Shown piece after piece: positions 54,451 through 61,674 of a stretch of 64,000 nt of DNA. A model generated the notes under the pieces. The model saw only the letters and a program-made list of their open reading frames with translations. It was not told the origin of the DNA and searched no databases. Numbering within the stretch: position 1 is the stretch's first letter; each line of letters begins with the position of its first letter. The position numbers and the translations under genes are program-made. The stretch spans positions 1 through 64,000 of the forward strand of contig JAOAIO010000002.1 in NCBI GenBank assembly GCA_026414665.1, in the 5' to 3' direction. This DNA comes from Azovibrio sp. Lineage in GTDB: Bacteria; Pseudomonadota; Gammaproteobacteria; Burkholderiales; Rhodocyclaceae.

Positions 54451-55660
54451 GCCAACCTTCCTGCCGACTGGCCGCAGCCGGCGCCGCTTCCTGCATGGCT
54501 GCGCCGCGCTCGCCACATACGCCGTCCTGCTCGCCCGCTCGCCCGCGCTGGCCGCGCCGACCGGCAAGAACGGCGCCCCACCCAAGACTAGCTGCGCCTG
54601 GCCAGCCTGGGAGGCCTTCAAGCAACAATTCTTGAGCGAGGGCGGCCGAGTCATCGACCCGGGCTCGGAGCGCAAGCAGACCTTCTCCGAAGGCCAGGCC
54701 TATGCCCTCTTTTTCGCGCTGGTGGCCGGCGACCGGGCCGGCTTCGAGCGCATCCTCAAATGGACCGAGGACAACCTCGCCAACGGCGACCTCACCGCCC
54801 GCCTGCCCGCTTGGCTGTGGGGCCGGCGCGACGACGGCACCTGGGGCGTGCTCGACGACAACCCCGCCGCGGATGCGGATCTGTGGATCGCCTACGCCCT
54901 GGGCGAAGCCGGCCGCCTCTGGCAAGAGCGGCGCTACGTCGCGCTGGCCTCGCTCATCGCCGCCCGCGTGCTGCGCGAAGAAACCGCCGACATCCCGGGC
55001 CTGGGCCTCACCCTCTTACCGGGCCCGCAAGGCTTTCACCCAACCCCACAACGCTGGCGCCTCAACCCGAGCTACGTGCCACTCCAGCTCATGGCCTGGT
55101 TCCGCGCCCGCAGCGGCGCTCCGGCTTGGCAAGCCTTGGAAGCCAGCGCGCGGCGCATGATCCTCGAATCCAGTCCGCAAGGGTTCGCCCCGGACTGGGT
55201 CCTATTCGAAGCCGGCAAAGGCTTTCTCCCCGACATAGACGGCCCGGACAAGGCCGACGGCGCCTATAACGCCATTCGTGTCTATCTTTGGGCCGGCACC
55301 CTCGCCCCGGACGCTCCCGGACGCCAAGAAGTGCTCGACCGCCTTGCGCCGATGGCCGCTTACGTCGCCCGCCATGGCTACCCGCCCGAGCGCATCGACA
55401 GCCGCACCGGCATCGGTGACAAGGCCGGGCCGACGGGCTTTTCCGCCGCGCTCTTACCCTTTCTCGCCGCCATCGGCGCGCGGCAGGCGCTCGATGTGCA
55501 ACGCCAGCGCCTCGAAGCCCGGCCGCCGCGCCCCGACGCCTATTATGAGCAAGCGCTCACCCTGTTCGCGCAGGGCTGGATGCAAGGCCGCTACCGTTTT
55601 GGCCGCGATGGCAGCCTCATCTTGCCGGCCCGCGCCGGGAGTAAAGGCGCGTGCGCTTGA
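54443..55660 (+). CDS. bcsZ: Cellulase BcsZ (GH8 endoglucanase), Tat-like signal
   Basis: GH8 features (FSEGQAYALFFALVAGDRAGFERILKWT, DADLWIAYAL); RSRRRFLHG twin-arginine motif. Confidence 0.93.
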   Translation: MTKPTFLPTGRSRRRFLHGCAALATYAVLLARSPALAAPTGKNGAPPKTSCAWPAWEAFKQQFLSEGGRVIDPGSERKQTFSEGQAYALFFALVAGDRAGFERILKWTEDNLANGDLTARLPAWLWGRRDDGTWGVLDDNPAADADLWIAYALGEAGRLWQERRYVALASLIAARVLREETADIPGLGLTLLPGPQGFHPTPQRWRLNPSYVPLQLMAWFRARSGAPAWQALEASARRMILESSPQGFAPDWVLFEAGKGFLPDIDGPDKADGAYNAIRVYLWAGTLAPDAPGRQEVLDRLAPMAAYVARHGYPPERIDSRTGIGDKAGPTGFSAALLPFLAAIGARQALDVQRQRLEARPPRPDAYYEQALTLFAQGWMQGRYRFGRDGSLILPARAGSKGACA

Positions 55661-58600
55661 AGCGGCGCTACCCGGCCTTGGTCCTAGCGCTAGGGTTGGC
55701 GCTGGGACTACCCGGCCATGCCGCGCCGCGCGCCACCGACCCGGCCGATACCCTGCTCGCTGCCGCCCGCATGTGGGATGGCAAGCAGCGCGGCGACCTG
55801 GCCCGGCAAATGCTCGAAAAATACCTGCTGGCGCGGCCCGATTCGGCCGAGGCGCTGTTCATGCTGGGCGAACTGGAACTACGCTCGAATCAGCCGGAAC
55901 GCGCCCAAGCCCTGCTCGAACGGCTGCGGCAACGCCACCCACAAGCCCCTGAGACCCGCGACCTTGCGCTCCTTTTGCGTCTCTACGGGCAGGAGCGGCA
56001 AGCCCTAGCGCAAGCACGTCTATTCGCCCGCGCCGGGCAATACAACGCTGCCCTGGCGGAATTGCGCCGGCTGTTCCCGGAAGGACCGCCGCCCGGGGAA
56101 CTAGCGCTCGAATACTACCGGGTCTTAGCGCAGACGCCGAAGGGAGAAGCCGAGGCCCGGCAAGGGCTCGAGCGCCTGCGCCAACGCTATCCCGACGACG
56201 TGCGCTACGAACTCGCGCTCACCCGCCTCCTGGGCGACACCCCGGCAGGCCGCGCCCGCGCCCTGCAAACTTTCGCCCGCCTGGCGCGCCAGGGCGACGC
56301 GCCGCGCCAGGCCCTGCTGGACGCCTGGCGCAGCATCCTCTACCGACTGCCCGAGGATGGCAGCGCCATTCCTCACCTCCGCGCCTACCTCGCCTTCGCC
56401 CCAGAAGAAAGCGCGATGGCAGACCGGCTGCGCAACGCTCAGCTCGCCCATGCCGCGCAGCAACGCCTCATGGCTGACCCCGCCTACCAGGCGCGGCTAC
56501 GCGCTCTGAAAGCGCTGGATCGAGACGAGACCGACCTGGAGCAAGCCAAAGCCGATCTACACCTGGCGCTGGCGCGGCGGCCGCACGACCCGGAAGTGCT
56601 GGGCGGGCTGGGGCTCGTGCATTTGCGCCGCGGCGAGCACGACGCCGCGCAAGCCTGGTTTGCCGCCGCCGCCCGGCACGATCCGGACAGCCGCCGCTGG
56701 ACCCAGCTCGCTCGCACGGCCCGCTTCTGGGGCTTGCTACGCCAGGTCGACGGCCAACTCGCCGCCGCTCAGCTCGACGCCGCCGAAAGCAGCGCGCGCG
56801 CCGCCTTGGCGCTCGACCCCCAACACCCCGAAGCGCTTGCCAGCCTCGCCGCGGTGCAGCTCGAAGCGGGCCAGCTCGCGGCCGCCGAGCAAGGCTACCG
56901 GCACATCCTCGCCGAACATCCGACCCACGCCAGCGCCGTGCGCGGCCTCACCCGGCTTCTGGTGCGCAGCCAGCGCCAGGCCGAAGCCCGCGCGCTACTC
57001 GCCCGTCAGCGCGAGCTACTCCCCGCCGCGACGCGCGACCGCTACGCCGACCTCGAAGCCAGCCTGCTGCGCGACGAGGCCGATGCGCTCCTCGCCGCTC
57101 GCCGCACCGGGCGGGCGCTCGAAAGCCTGGAGCACGCCCTGCTGCTCGCCCCCGGCGACCCCTGGGTACGCTATGACCTGGCCCGGCTCTACAGCCGCCT
57201 TGGCTTACCCGAATTGGGACGGCGTCTCATGCAAAGCGAAGTGACGCCGACCGACGCGGCGCAAGCGCACGCCCTGGCCTATGCCGAAGCGCTCTACCTA
57301 GCCGGCGAGAACGACCCCGAAGCGGCGCTCGCCGCGCTGGCACGCATTCCGACCTCGGCCCGCAATAGCGCCATGCAAGCGCTCGAGCAGCGCGCCCGCC
57401 TCGATTACCTACTCGACCAGGCTGCCCAACACGCCGCCCAGGGCGACCACGGCGAGGCGCTGCGCCTCGTGCAGATCGCCGAACGCCAGGCCTGGCAAGA
57501 CCCGGCGCAGGTGCACCGTGTCGCCCATGCCTGGGTGAGCCTAGGCGAGACCGCCCAGGCCGAAGCGCTGATGCAGGAATTGCTGCGCCGCCAGCCGGAC
57601 GACCCGGCGCACCTGCTCGATCTGGCCAGCATCCTCGACCGCAGCCAGGCAGATGCGCAATTGGCGGAACTCCTGCCCCGACTGCAAGCGCGCGGCGACT
57701 GGAGCGCCGCCGAAGTCGAGCGCCTGCTCGCGCTCGAGACCAACCTCATCGCCCGTCAGGTCGATAAAGCGCTACAAACCGGCCGCCCGGACCTCGCCCG
57801 GGCCCGCGCCAGCGCGCCGCTCACGGCTCCGGGCGACCCCTTGCAGCTCCAGAAGGCCCGCGCCCGCTTGCTGCTCGAAGCGCGCGACTACGCCGCCGCC
57901 CTACCGCTCCTCGAACGCCTTGCTCGCACCTTTCCCGGCGATGCCGCACTCGGCCTCGATCTGGCCCGCGCCCAAGCCGAAAGCGGCGATGCCGCGGCGG
58001 CCCTTGCCACATTGGCCGCCCTGCGCAGCCGGCTCGGCCCGGAGCAGCTCGAGCTTAAGCTCGCCGTGCTGCGCCAATTGACACGTATGCAACAGCTCGA
58101 CGCCGCCCGCGCCCAAGCCGCCGAGCTGCGCCTGCAATACCCGGAACACCCGGAAGTGCTGCTCGCCTCGGGCCGAGTCGAGCTGGCCGCCCGGAATTAC
58201 CCGGCCGCGCTCGCTTACTTCCATGCCGCGCGCCAGGCCGCCGGCTACCCGGCCGGAACCGACACTGGCCGCATCGCCTTGCTCGAACCCCGTCCAGACG
58301 CGAGCGCGGCGCCGCTGCCCTTGCAACTGGCCTACGAGCTCGAGGCTCAAACGCGCCGCGATGCGGGCCCCGGCCTGCTCGATGCCGGCGCCACTGGCCT
58401 TAGCCCGCGCCTAGCGCTCACCCTCTGGCAGCCGCCGCTGGACGGCCCAGCCCGCCCGCCCATGCTACTCGCCCGGAGCAGCAGCAAGGCGGCGGCCACG
58501 CCGCTGCCCAGCATCGCTGCGGCCGAAATCCAAGACATCGAAGCGCGCCGGCAGACCCGGGTGGAAATCGGGTATGACCAATACCGCAAGCACGCCGCGC

Positions 58601-59697
58601 CCGGCACCTCGACCTTCAAAGGCGAGGAAATCCCGCTGGTAGGCTGGCTCGCCCGCGGTTACGACGGCCATCTATTCGTCCAGACCGACCGGGTCGAATT
58701 GGATGCCGAGGCGCTGCCCGCCGCTTATGACGACGCTGCCCTGTTCGGCCAGATCCAGGCGCACGCCTACCGCCCCAGCCATGCGCTGCCGCAGCGCGCC
58801 CACGGCCAGCACCTCGGCATCGGCTACCGCTCCGACACGCTCCGCTTCGATCTTGGCCTCACCGGACAAGGCTTCCCCGTACGCAACGTCGTAGGCGGTC
58901 TCGCCTACCGCTGGGAACTGGGTGGTCGCTTCAACACCAGCGCCACTTTGGAATTCTCGCGCCGCCCGATCACGAGTAGCCTTACCGCCTACGCCGGCAG
59001 CCGCGACCCCGTCACGGGCGAAATCTGGGGCGGGGTCGTCGCCACCGGCATCGGCGGCCGCATCGCTGCCGACCTAGGACCTTACTCCGGCTTTGCCAGC
59101 CTGTCCCTGGCCAAGCTCACGGGCAAGAACGTTCTCGACAACGAGCGCATGCTGCTGCGCGCTGGCCTCGACCGCGACGTGCTACGCACCCCCGACATGC
59201 GGATCAACCTCGGCCTCGTGCTGTCTTGGTGGAAATACGCGGAAAACCAGGGGTATTACACCTTCGGGCACGGCGGCTATTACAGCCCGCAAAATTACCT
59301 GGCCTTGTCCGTCCCGGTAGACTGGGCCGGCCGGCGCGGCCGCTTGTCCTGGCAGCTACGCGCCAGCTTGTCGGTCTCGAACAGCCGCGAGGACGCCGCC
59401 GACTTCTACCCGACCCGACCCGATCTGCAAGCCCGCGCCGCCACCGCGCCCTTGCCTGCCGGCTATACCGCCCCGCGTTACGCCAGCAGCCAGGGCGGCG
59501 GCGTCGGCCACTCGCTCCTGGCCGCCGCCGAATACCGGCTCACGCCCCATCTCGCTTTGGGCGGCCGCTTCAGTCTCGACCGCTCCGACTACTACAACCC
59601 GAATTCCCTGCTCGTTTATTTGCGCTACTTCCTCGACCCCCGCGTCGAGCCGGTACGCTTCCCGCCCGTGCCAGTGCAGCCTTACGCGCAGTTCTGA
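55651..59697 (+). CDS. bcsC: Cellulose export outer membrane protein BcsC (TPR plus C-terminal barrel)
   Basis: 1348 aa; many TPR repeats, C-terminal BcsC barrel domain ending in aromatic F; GTG start. Confidence 0.93.
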   Translation: MRLKRRYPALVLALGLALGLPGHAAPRATDPADTLLAAARMWDGKQRGDLARQMLEKYLLARPDSAEALFMLGELELRSNQPERAQALLERLRQRHPQAPETRDLALLLRLYGQERQALAQARLFARAGQYNAALAELRRLFPEGPPPGELALEYYRVLAQTPKGEAEARQGLERLRQRYPDDVRYELALTRLLGDTPAGRARALQTFARLARQGDAPRQALLDAWRSILYRLPEDGSAIPHLRAYLAFAPEESAMADRLRNAQLAHAAQQRLMADPAYQARLRALKALDRDETDLEQAKADLHLALARRPHDPEVLGGLGLVHLRRGEHDAAQAWFAAAARHDPDSRRWTQLARTARFWGLLRQVDGQLAAAQLDAAESSARAALALDPQHPEALASLAAVQLEAGQLAAAEQGYRHILAEHPTHASAVRGLTRLLVRSQRQAEARALLARQRELLPAATRDRYADLEASLLRDEADALLAARRTGRALESLEHALLLAPGDPWVRYDLARLYSRLGLPELGRRLMQSEVTPTDAAQAHALAYAEALYLAGENDPEAALAALARIPTSARNSAMQALEQRARLDYLLDQAAQHAAQGDHGEALRLVQIAERQAWQDPAQVHRVAHAWVSLGETAQAEALMQELLRRQPDDPAHLLDLASILDRSQADAQLAELLPRLQARGDWSAAEVERLLALETNLIARQVDKALQTGRPDLARARASAPLTAPGDPLQLQKARARLLLEARDYAAALPLLERLARTFPGDAALGLDLARAQAESGDAAAALATLAALRSRLGPEQLELKLAVLRQLTRMQQLDAARAQAAELRLQYPEHPEVLLASGRVELAARNYPAALAYFHAARQAAGYPAGTDTGRIALLEPRPDASAAPLPLQLAYELEAQTRRDAGPGLLDAGATGLSPRLALTLWQPPLDGPARPPMLLARSSSKAAATPLPSIAAAEIQDIEARRQTRVEIGYDQYRKHAAPGTSTFKGEEIPLVGWLARGYDGHLFVQTDRVELDAEALPAAYDDAALFGQIQAHAYRPSHALPQRAHGQHLGIGYRSDTLRFDLGLTGQGFPVRNVVGGLAYRWELGGRFNTSATLEFSRRPITSSLTAYAGSRDPVTGEIWGGVVATGIGGRIAADLGPYSGFASLSLAKLTGKNVLDNERMLLRAGLDRDVLRTPDMRINLGLVLSWWKYAENQGYYTFGHGGYYSPQNYLALSVPVDWAGRRGRLSWQLRASLSVSNSREDAADFYPTRPDLQARAATAPLPAGYTAPRYASSQGGGVGHSLLAAAEYRLTPHLALGGRFSLDRSDYYNPNSLLVYLRYFLDPRVEPVRFPPVPVQPYAQF

Positions 59698-59796
59698 AAG
59701 CCGATGCCGCCGCCAGTGGCCAAGCTGCCGACCTTCCTACGCGCCATGGCGTGCCCTGCCACCATCCGAGGCCGCCGCTTTGCCCAGGCGCTTACT

Positions 59797-59939
59797 GGGC
59801 ACCTCGAAAAACCGTCGCGAGCGGGTGGAGGGCAAGGCGCACGGCGCGCAGGATGCGAGACATATCAAGTCGATAGGCGAGCATCCGAGCACCGCGCAAC
59901 GCAGCCATCCGGCCGCGCAGCAGGTTTTTCGAGGCGCCC
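59797..59939. mobile_element. MITE-like miniature inverted-repeat element
   Basis: 17-bp terminal inverted repeats (GGGCACCTCGAAAAACC / GGTTTTTCGAGGCGCCC, 1 mismatch), flanking TACT direct repeats, internal GGATGC/GCATCC palindrome, no ORF of its own. Confidence 0.7.
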
Positions 59940-61459
59940 TACTCGCGGTAAGGCATCCATACCCCATCGGCCGTGCGCATCTGATAGCCATCGCCGTGCC
60001 GCAAGAGCACCACGGCTTCGTTCTCGGCAACGTGCATGGTTTCAGGCAAACGGGCGGCAAGCTGCGCGCGGTCGGTCTCGCCATTTAAGAGCTGAGCAAC
60101 CACGGCGGTGAGCGCCAAATAGCTGCTCGGCCGGTCGATGACCTGAGCCGGGCCGCGCATTCCCGGCATACCGATGAGCTTCACGGCAGCCGGCACGCGG
60201 GTGATGCGCGGACTGGGAATCTCGCGTAGCCCGGCGATTTGCAAACGGTCGCCACGCAAGGCGGCGCCATGCTCGCCGACCAGCACCAATACCACCGGCC
60301 GGCCGGAAGCTTCGAGCTCCTCGATGAACCGCGCAAGATCGTCGAGGAGCTGCAAGAGCCGCGGCTTGTAAGTCTGTAGGCTGGAGGCGGACTTATACCC
60401 GGGCAGGCGATTGCCATCGTGCAAGGAAATGGTGTTGTAGTAGAGCGCCACAGGCCCGGCTTCGGTCGCGCGGCGCGCCTGCCACCAGTAGGAGAGCACG
60501 GCGCGGTCGCTGAAGATCGGGGTATCGTCGAAGCTGCGCATGGCCACCGGCGCATCCTTTGGAATCAAAGGCTTACGCGAAAACCCTCCTTCCGTCTCCA
60601 CGAGCTTGGCGAAGTTATCAAACCGGCCATCGTGATTGAGCAAGGCCTCGGCGGTAAAGCCAGCCTGCTCGAAATTGCGGAACAACTGGCACTGCGGATT
60701 GTGCTCGCGGTAGGTGCTCTGGTGATCGAGCTGGCCGCAAGCGCTCTTCAACAGCCGCACCGCCGCTGGGCCGCTATAGCTCGCGGCGCTGTTGAACTGC
60801 CGAAACAGCAAGTCGAAACCGGCAAAGAACGGATGCTCGTGCAATTGCAAAAACGCCATGTCGTCCCAGGACAAGGAGCAAACATGCACATAGATCACAT
60901 CGAAGCCCGGCCTGCCTGCTTCCGCTGCCTTGAACGGCAAGACGCGGCGCTTTTGGGCTTGGTAGAAGGCCGCCAGCCGGGCCTCGGGATCTTGCGCCGC
61001 GCCGGCACCGCCCGCCTCCTCGGCCGCCGTCGCGGATTTGAAGACATCCGGCCGCCAATGGCTGGCAGGTATGACGCTCAGTATGCCCAAGAACACGAAG
61101 GTCGCCAGGCGCAGATAGCGGCCCAGCCAGCGCAAGCAAAGCGCCGCGGCGAGTAGCGCCACGAGCCAGGCCGGGTTGATGAAACGGCCCAATAATTCGA
61201 GCCAATACGCGAGGCTGAAATCGGCCAGCGCGCCGACCTGCGCGATGAGGCGCGAAAAAGGCGGCAACCAGGAATCGTAATAAAGCAGCGCCACACCCAC
61301 CGGCACGGCGCAGGCTTGGCGCAGCCGACGCCAGCCGGCGCGCTGCAAGGGCAAGGCGAGCGCAAGCGCGAAGAGCAAGTTCTCAAAGACGTGAAAACCG
61401 CCATAGCCGGCATAGAACAGCCCCAGCTTGACGAAAAAATACAGGCTCCAGAGCCCCAT
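59939..61459 (-). CDS. bcsG: Cellulose biosynthesis protein BcsG (phosphoethanolamine transferase)
   Basis: N-terminal TM helices plus alkaline-phosphatase-like domain (YVHVCSLSWDDM, NHDGRFDNFAKLV, YYNTISLHDGNR, VLVGEHGAALRGD). Confidence 0.92.
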   Translation of the reverse strand: MGLWSLYFFVKLGLFYAGYGGFHVFENLLFALALALPLQRAGWRRLRQACAVPVGVALLYYDSWLPPFSRLIAQVGALADFSLAYWLELLGRFINPAWLVALLAAALCLRWLGRYLRLATFVFLGILSVIPASHWRPDVFKSATAAEEAGGAGAAQDPEARLAAFYQAQKRRVLPFKAAEAGRPGFDVIYVHVCSLSWDDMAFLQLHEHPFFAGFDLLFRQFNSAASYSGPAAVRLLKSACGQLDHQSTYREHNPQCQLFRNFEQAGFTAEALLNHDGRFDNFAKLVETEGGFSRKPLIPKDAPVAMRSFDDTPIFSDRAVLSYWWQARRATEAGPVALYYNTISLHDGNRLPGYKSASSLQTYKPRLLQLLDDLARFIEELEASGRPVVLVLVGEHGAALRGDRLQIAGLREIPSPRITRVPAAVKLIGMPGMRGPAQVIDRPSSYLALTAVVAQLLNGETDRAQLAARLPETMHVAENEAVVLLRHGDGYQMRTADGVWMPYRE

Positions 61460-61674
61460 CCGCCTCAAAGCCTCGGCTGAACCCCAAAAACCACGGAGCC
61501 CACACTAGGCCACGGGTCCCGGGAGGCCGGCTTAATCGCCCAACACGCCGGCAAAAGTACGCACCGCATCGTTTCTGCTCATCCTCTGTATCTTGGCGCC
61601 GCTATGGCGAAGCGCTTAAGCCAAAAGGCTAAAGATTACAGAATTTTTGCAGTGTATGGCTGACTTGGCGCGTA

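Follow-up and report, generated by a model that had tools for sequence, protein, structure and literature searches.

A probable IS5-dependent MITE at the bcsG stop codon, and a hairpin core common to elements with different ends

In the window, the 64,000-nucleotide stretch of Azovibrio sp. DNA that was analysed, the convergent genes bcsC and bcsG meet around a short palindromic sequence. The locus raises the question of what this sequence is, how it came to lie there and what it does to its neighbors. The preliminary description had read it as a 143-bp element with 17-bp terminal repeats (one mismatch) and TACT flanks, placed between the two bcs arms, and all of these particulars were confirmed when the sequence was re-read, with bcsC and bcsG facing each other on opposite strands. 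The features are as follows.

55651–59697, plus strand: bcsC (context), ending 99 bp before the element; PF05420 (BCSC_C), 340 bits.
59793–59796, no strand: target-site duplication TACT, left copy; from the sequence and the class-wide duplication test.
59797–59813, plus strand: left terminal inverted repeat, GGGCACCTCGAAAAACC; from the sequence, the end-motif scan and identity to IS5-family ends in L249 and L243.
59814–59922, plus strand: conserved hairpin core of ~109 bp; common to elements with other ends, 114.8 bits against the core model, covariation.
59923–59939, minus strand: right terminal inverted repeat, GGGCGCCTCGAAAAACC on this strand; from the sequence and the end-motif scan.
59940–59943, no strand: target-site duplication TACT, right copy; completes the bcsG stop codon TAG with base 59939.
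59939–61468, minus strand: bcsG (context), its stop codon completed by the element; PF11658 (CBP_BcsG), 582 bits.

The window copy thus spans 143 bp at 59797–59939, and its right repeat, GGTTTTTCGAGGCGCCC on the forward strand, is an inverted copy of GGGCACCTCGAAAAACC with one mismatch. The interior had been described as an imperfect palindrome. The strand is predicted to fold into one long hairpin at -80.4 kcal/mol; dinucleotide-shuffled sequences gave -55.2 ± 4.4 kcal/mol (z = -5.7), and none of 200 did as well.

The insertion looks neutral for bcsG, as had been proposed from the reading frame. The G of the bcsG stop codon TAG is base 59939, the last base of the element, and when the element and one TACT are taken out in silico bcsG reads GAG TAA; the BcsG protein stays the same, since a new stop codon, TAG in place of TAA, is completed by the end of the element. 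Congeners back this reading: in two of them (G008 and G004) BcsG ends in YRE followed by a stop at the same codon, and bcsC comes next without the element. An empty TACT site at the nucleotide level was recovered neither in these congeners, where the intergenes are too diverged to align, nor by comparison with Tepidiphilus, where the flanks are too diverged.

The location between convergent genes and the strength of the hairpin had also suggested a bidirectional transcription terminator serving the two bcs arms, and this idea fared poorly. A G+C-rich stem with a T run directly behind it, as in an intrinsic terminator, is absent from both strands of the window copy, whose T5 runs are located within the arms of the hairpin. 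Nine copies in this MAG have genes called on both sides; by simple ORF calling, the window copy is the one convergent case, three are co-directional and five are divergent; a convergent terminator would not be distributed in this way. A terminator is therefore a very improbable explanation of the element, and a local effect of this kind at the bcs copy is still conceivable.

Copies elsewhere in the genome point to a mobile element. In the 2.16-Mb MAG, blastn gave 19 matches to the window copy, the core model gave 15, and the end motif occurred 22 times with up to 2 mismatches compared with 0 for a reversed control, so that the copy number is roughly 15–20. The copies are dispersed, without a common gene context. 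Several have 4-bp duplications of their own, exact in TAAC/TAAC, CGAA/CGAA and ATCG/ATCG and with one mismatch in others. When every fetched locus bearing the window-type end class was pooled, 4-bp duplications were exact in 30 of 54 non-redundant elements, against a mean of 1.03 and a maximum of 5 under permutation; the duplicated sites had no clear motif. Of the things that the preliminary description had proposed to look for, other copies were found and empty TACT sites in relatives were not.

An autonomous insertion sequence with the same ends had likewise been sought, and it was found outside this genome. An IMG/VR contig (L222) carries a 1296-bp IS with ends GGGCACCTCTAAAAACC and GGGAACCTCTAAAAACC, a CTCT duplication and an IS5-family transposase (NF033581, 273 bits). 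A search with this transposase yielded relatives of 1288–1294 bp in Marinobacterium sedimentorum and Tepidiphilus margaritifer, both of which also contain the miniature element. The left end of the Tepidiphilus IS copies has the sequence of the window copy's left repeat, and that of the Marinobacterium IS has the sequence of its right repeat. The Marinobacterium IS (L242) has the duplication TTTT, which like the CTCT of L222 is 4 bp long without a clear motif, as in the window class; matching duplications were not seen at the two full-length Tepidiphilus copies. In the MAG itself (84% complete) no autonomous IS of the window end type was detectable, and the search gave nothing beyond a weak, distant match. 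These IS5-family insertion sequences (NF033581-type transposase) share the 17-bp end of the window copy and differ from it in length (about 1.29 kb), in having a transposase and in that the hairpin core was not seen inside them.

Two observations on the Tepidiphilus margaritifer copies may be added. Transposase matches in L243, L249 and L251 are split over several pieces and frames, which might reflect a frameshift, programmed or degenerate, and L251 is a shortened, 875-bp form of the IS.

Among the features by which the MITE claim was examined, inverted repeats, dispersed copies and duplications of fixed length were found, as was, in other genomes, an autonomous IS whose ends match. Based on these data, the window copy would be an element without a gene of its own, moved by a transposase of the IS5 family that acts on the end GGGCACCTCGAAAAACC and leaves a 4-bp target duplication with no obvious motif. 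It would have landed at the bcsG stop, where the new TAG replaces TAA. It is part of a far larger set of ~143-bp elements that have a hairpin core in common and IS5-type ends of three or more classes. We put the probability of this reading, an IS5-dependent MITE in a coding-neutral position at bcsG and a member of that core-sharing set, at about 0.88. The MAG shows no IS of this kind, and we infer that a matching IS5-type transposase moved the window copy.

Many MITEs are taken to be internal-deletion derivatives of an IS, and the same origin could be imagined here: the similar cores would be subterminal DNA of a single IS whose ends diverged together with its transposase. Ends identical to those of an IS5-family element fit such a derivation, as does the A-rich inner part seen in all end classes (e.g., GAAAAACC, GAATAAATC and GAAAAACG). 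On inspection, however, the part of the IS that adjoins the 17-bp end on its inner side (CCCTCCACCCCCGGCC...) is unlike the core, nothing in common between IS and miniature element is apparent beyond the ends, and the same core lies between ends that follow other duplication rules. A simple internal deletion is thus unlikely.

Several end classes were distinguished. Ends of the form GGGCACCTC[GT]AAAAACC are accompanied by unspecific 4-bp duplications. Those with GGAAACGCTGAATAAATC have YTAR-like 4-bp duplications (16 of 43 exact, compared with 2.95 permuted). For CAGGCYGTTGAAAAAC ends, exact duplications (4 of 15) are not above the permuted 2.0, and all four are CTAA or TTAG. The GAGCTTGTG/GAACGTGTTTT class has 3-bp TNA duplications. 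YTAR and TNA duplications presumably belong to different IS5 subgroups. Two or three classes can coexist in one genome, e.g., in Thiobacillaceae SKYG94 and Tepidiphilus olei. Autonomous partners for GGAAACGCTG, CAGGCYGTTG and GAGCTTGTG ends were not found in IMG/VR.

Window-type ends (GGGCACCTCTAAAAACC, up to 2 mismatches) number more than 200 in each of two Troglogloeales genomes of 1.6–2.4 Mb (G065 and G066), with several element lengths, from about 76 to 185 bp. Candidates for an autonomous IS in these genomes, paired ends 1.6–2.5 kb apart, enclose ordinary genes rather than a transposase in the cases that were read. A 160-bp element in IMG/VR (L379, 2021–2180) has a GGAAGCGCTGAATAAATC end, TTTA/TTAG flanks and an outer interior unlike the shared core, and is possibly another miniature element on the same ends. 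In Polaromonas (L311–L329) and Gallionella (L293–L310), the outermost 7–9 bases vary from copy to copy and are complementary within each copy, and the copies are mostly without a target duplication. Insertion into pre-existing hairpins was considered as a source of these copy-specific outer arms; such an origin would be hard to reconcile with the ends and duplications that window-class elements have in common.

The middle of the element is what extends across lineages. Blast searches in relatives aligned chiefly this part, which lies there between other inverted repeats. At E ≤ 1e-5, the core model found matches in 47 of the 299 sampled genomes of the phylum. A scan with two conserved blocks returned at least 113 stretches; those listed come from Thiobacillaceae, Rhodocyclaceae, Gallionella, Sideroxydans, Polaromonas, Tepidiphilus, Halomonas and allies, Pseudomonas peli, Marinobacterium, Lysobacterales, Geobacter relatives and Troglogloeales, which we take to belong to Nitrospirota. 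The core is thus found in Beta- and Gammaproteobacteria, Geobacter relatives and Nitrospirota. Elements with well-paired arms are nearly all 139–150 bp long. The window copy is absent from plasmids; its relatives occur in 1–3 plasmid records and in none from phages, and E. coli gave no match. In the literature searched, mostly without subscription papers, no earlier description of the shared core was found.

Two further arrangements of the core were seen. A Proteobacteria MAG (L126, JAJZUW010000009.1, 1757–2388) has five core copies in tandem, spaced 137–142 bp, a head-to-tail duplication. In two genomes (L066 and L095) a copy adjoins DNA resembling the groEL 3′ end, with a tRNA close by, possibly as an old insertion at a stop codon that the two have in common.

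Aligned with one another, the cores have the signature of a conserved fold, as judged from their sequences: 96.2% of cells are paired compared with 83.2% when shuffled, there are 140 double changes compared with 42, and pairing falls to 22–40% when slid. Because the alignment was picked via the two conserved blocks, their invariance partly reflects how the sequences were chosen; this does not apply to the covarying helices outside them. Matching of the outer arms is specific to each copy: in four genomes, an arm fits its own partner better than the arms of other copies; selection on the folded strand and template-switching repair would both do this.

Covariation of this strength, and arms that match their own partners best, would also be expected of a functional structured RNA, or of a DNA hairpin selected by the host, that is merely spread by transposition and keeps its pairing by selection. 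The RNA candidate is sX9 (RF02228), a Xanthomonas sRNA in Rfam, whose 76 positions match at full length one half of each of two elements (L054 and L064) on the opposite strand, with 44.7 bits at a cut-off of 44, and more weakly five further elements. The alignment takes in part of an arm. No Rfam family matched the window copy above cut-off and the sX9 model was not reached, so the link to sX9 goes through relatives. A further 18 loci gave no match at the gathering threshold, and sX9 therefore covers only part of the element family. In Lysobacterales (the order of L069), sX9 matches at E ≤ 0.001 are present in 14 of 81 sampled genomes, with up to 31 per genome, and several of these matches are set in DNA with the arm-core-arm layout. 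Upregulation of sX9 in Xanthomonas campestris under copper stress (PMC10924375) speaks for a functional RNA. However, sX9 is listed with the 20 commonest bacterial sRNA annotations and has no stated function (PMC9029176), the copies are scattered without a common gene context, and template switching at a hairpin during replication would also keep the arms matched. We consider a host-selected RNA or DNA hairpin improbable as the primary identity of the core. The element differs from sX9 as described, an sRNA that spans only half of it, and the matches suggest that sX9 may be a part of a transposable element.

The set to which the window copy belongs resembles other bacterial MITEs in being short and multi-copy, in needing no open reading frame of its own, and in its inverted repeats, duplications and full-length IS with the same ends. 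A MITE family is normally defined and held together by its ends. Here it is the interior that is conserved, whereas ends and duplication rules vary between lineages and within genomes, and a hairpin core common to lineages between different ends is what is new. The core would have been handed on between sets of ends instead of originating several times. Tentatively, and at somewhat less than even odds, it is a portable module that persists by end change, using at least three IS5-type transposase groups in several phyla, with ends kept matched by template switching or transcript selection and with sX9 as a piece of it. The combination of a conserved middle with varying ends opens the question of how non-autonomous elements switch transposase, and makes such changes directly testable. 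If sX9 is part of a transposable element, its widespread annotations need re-reading.
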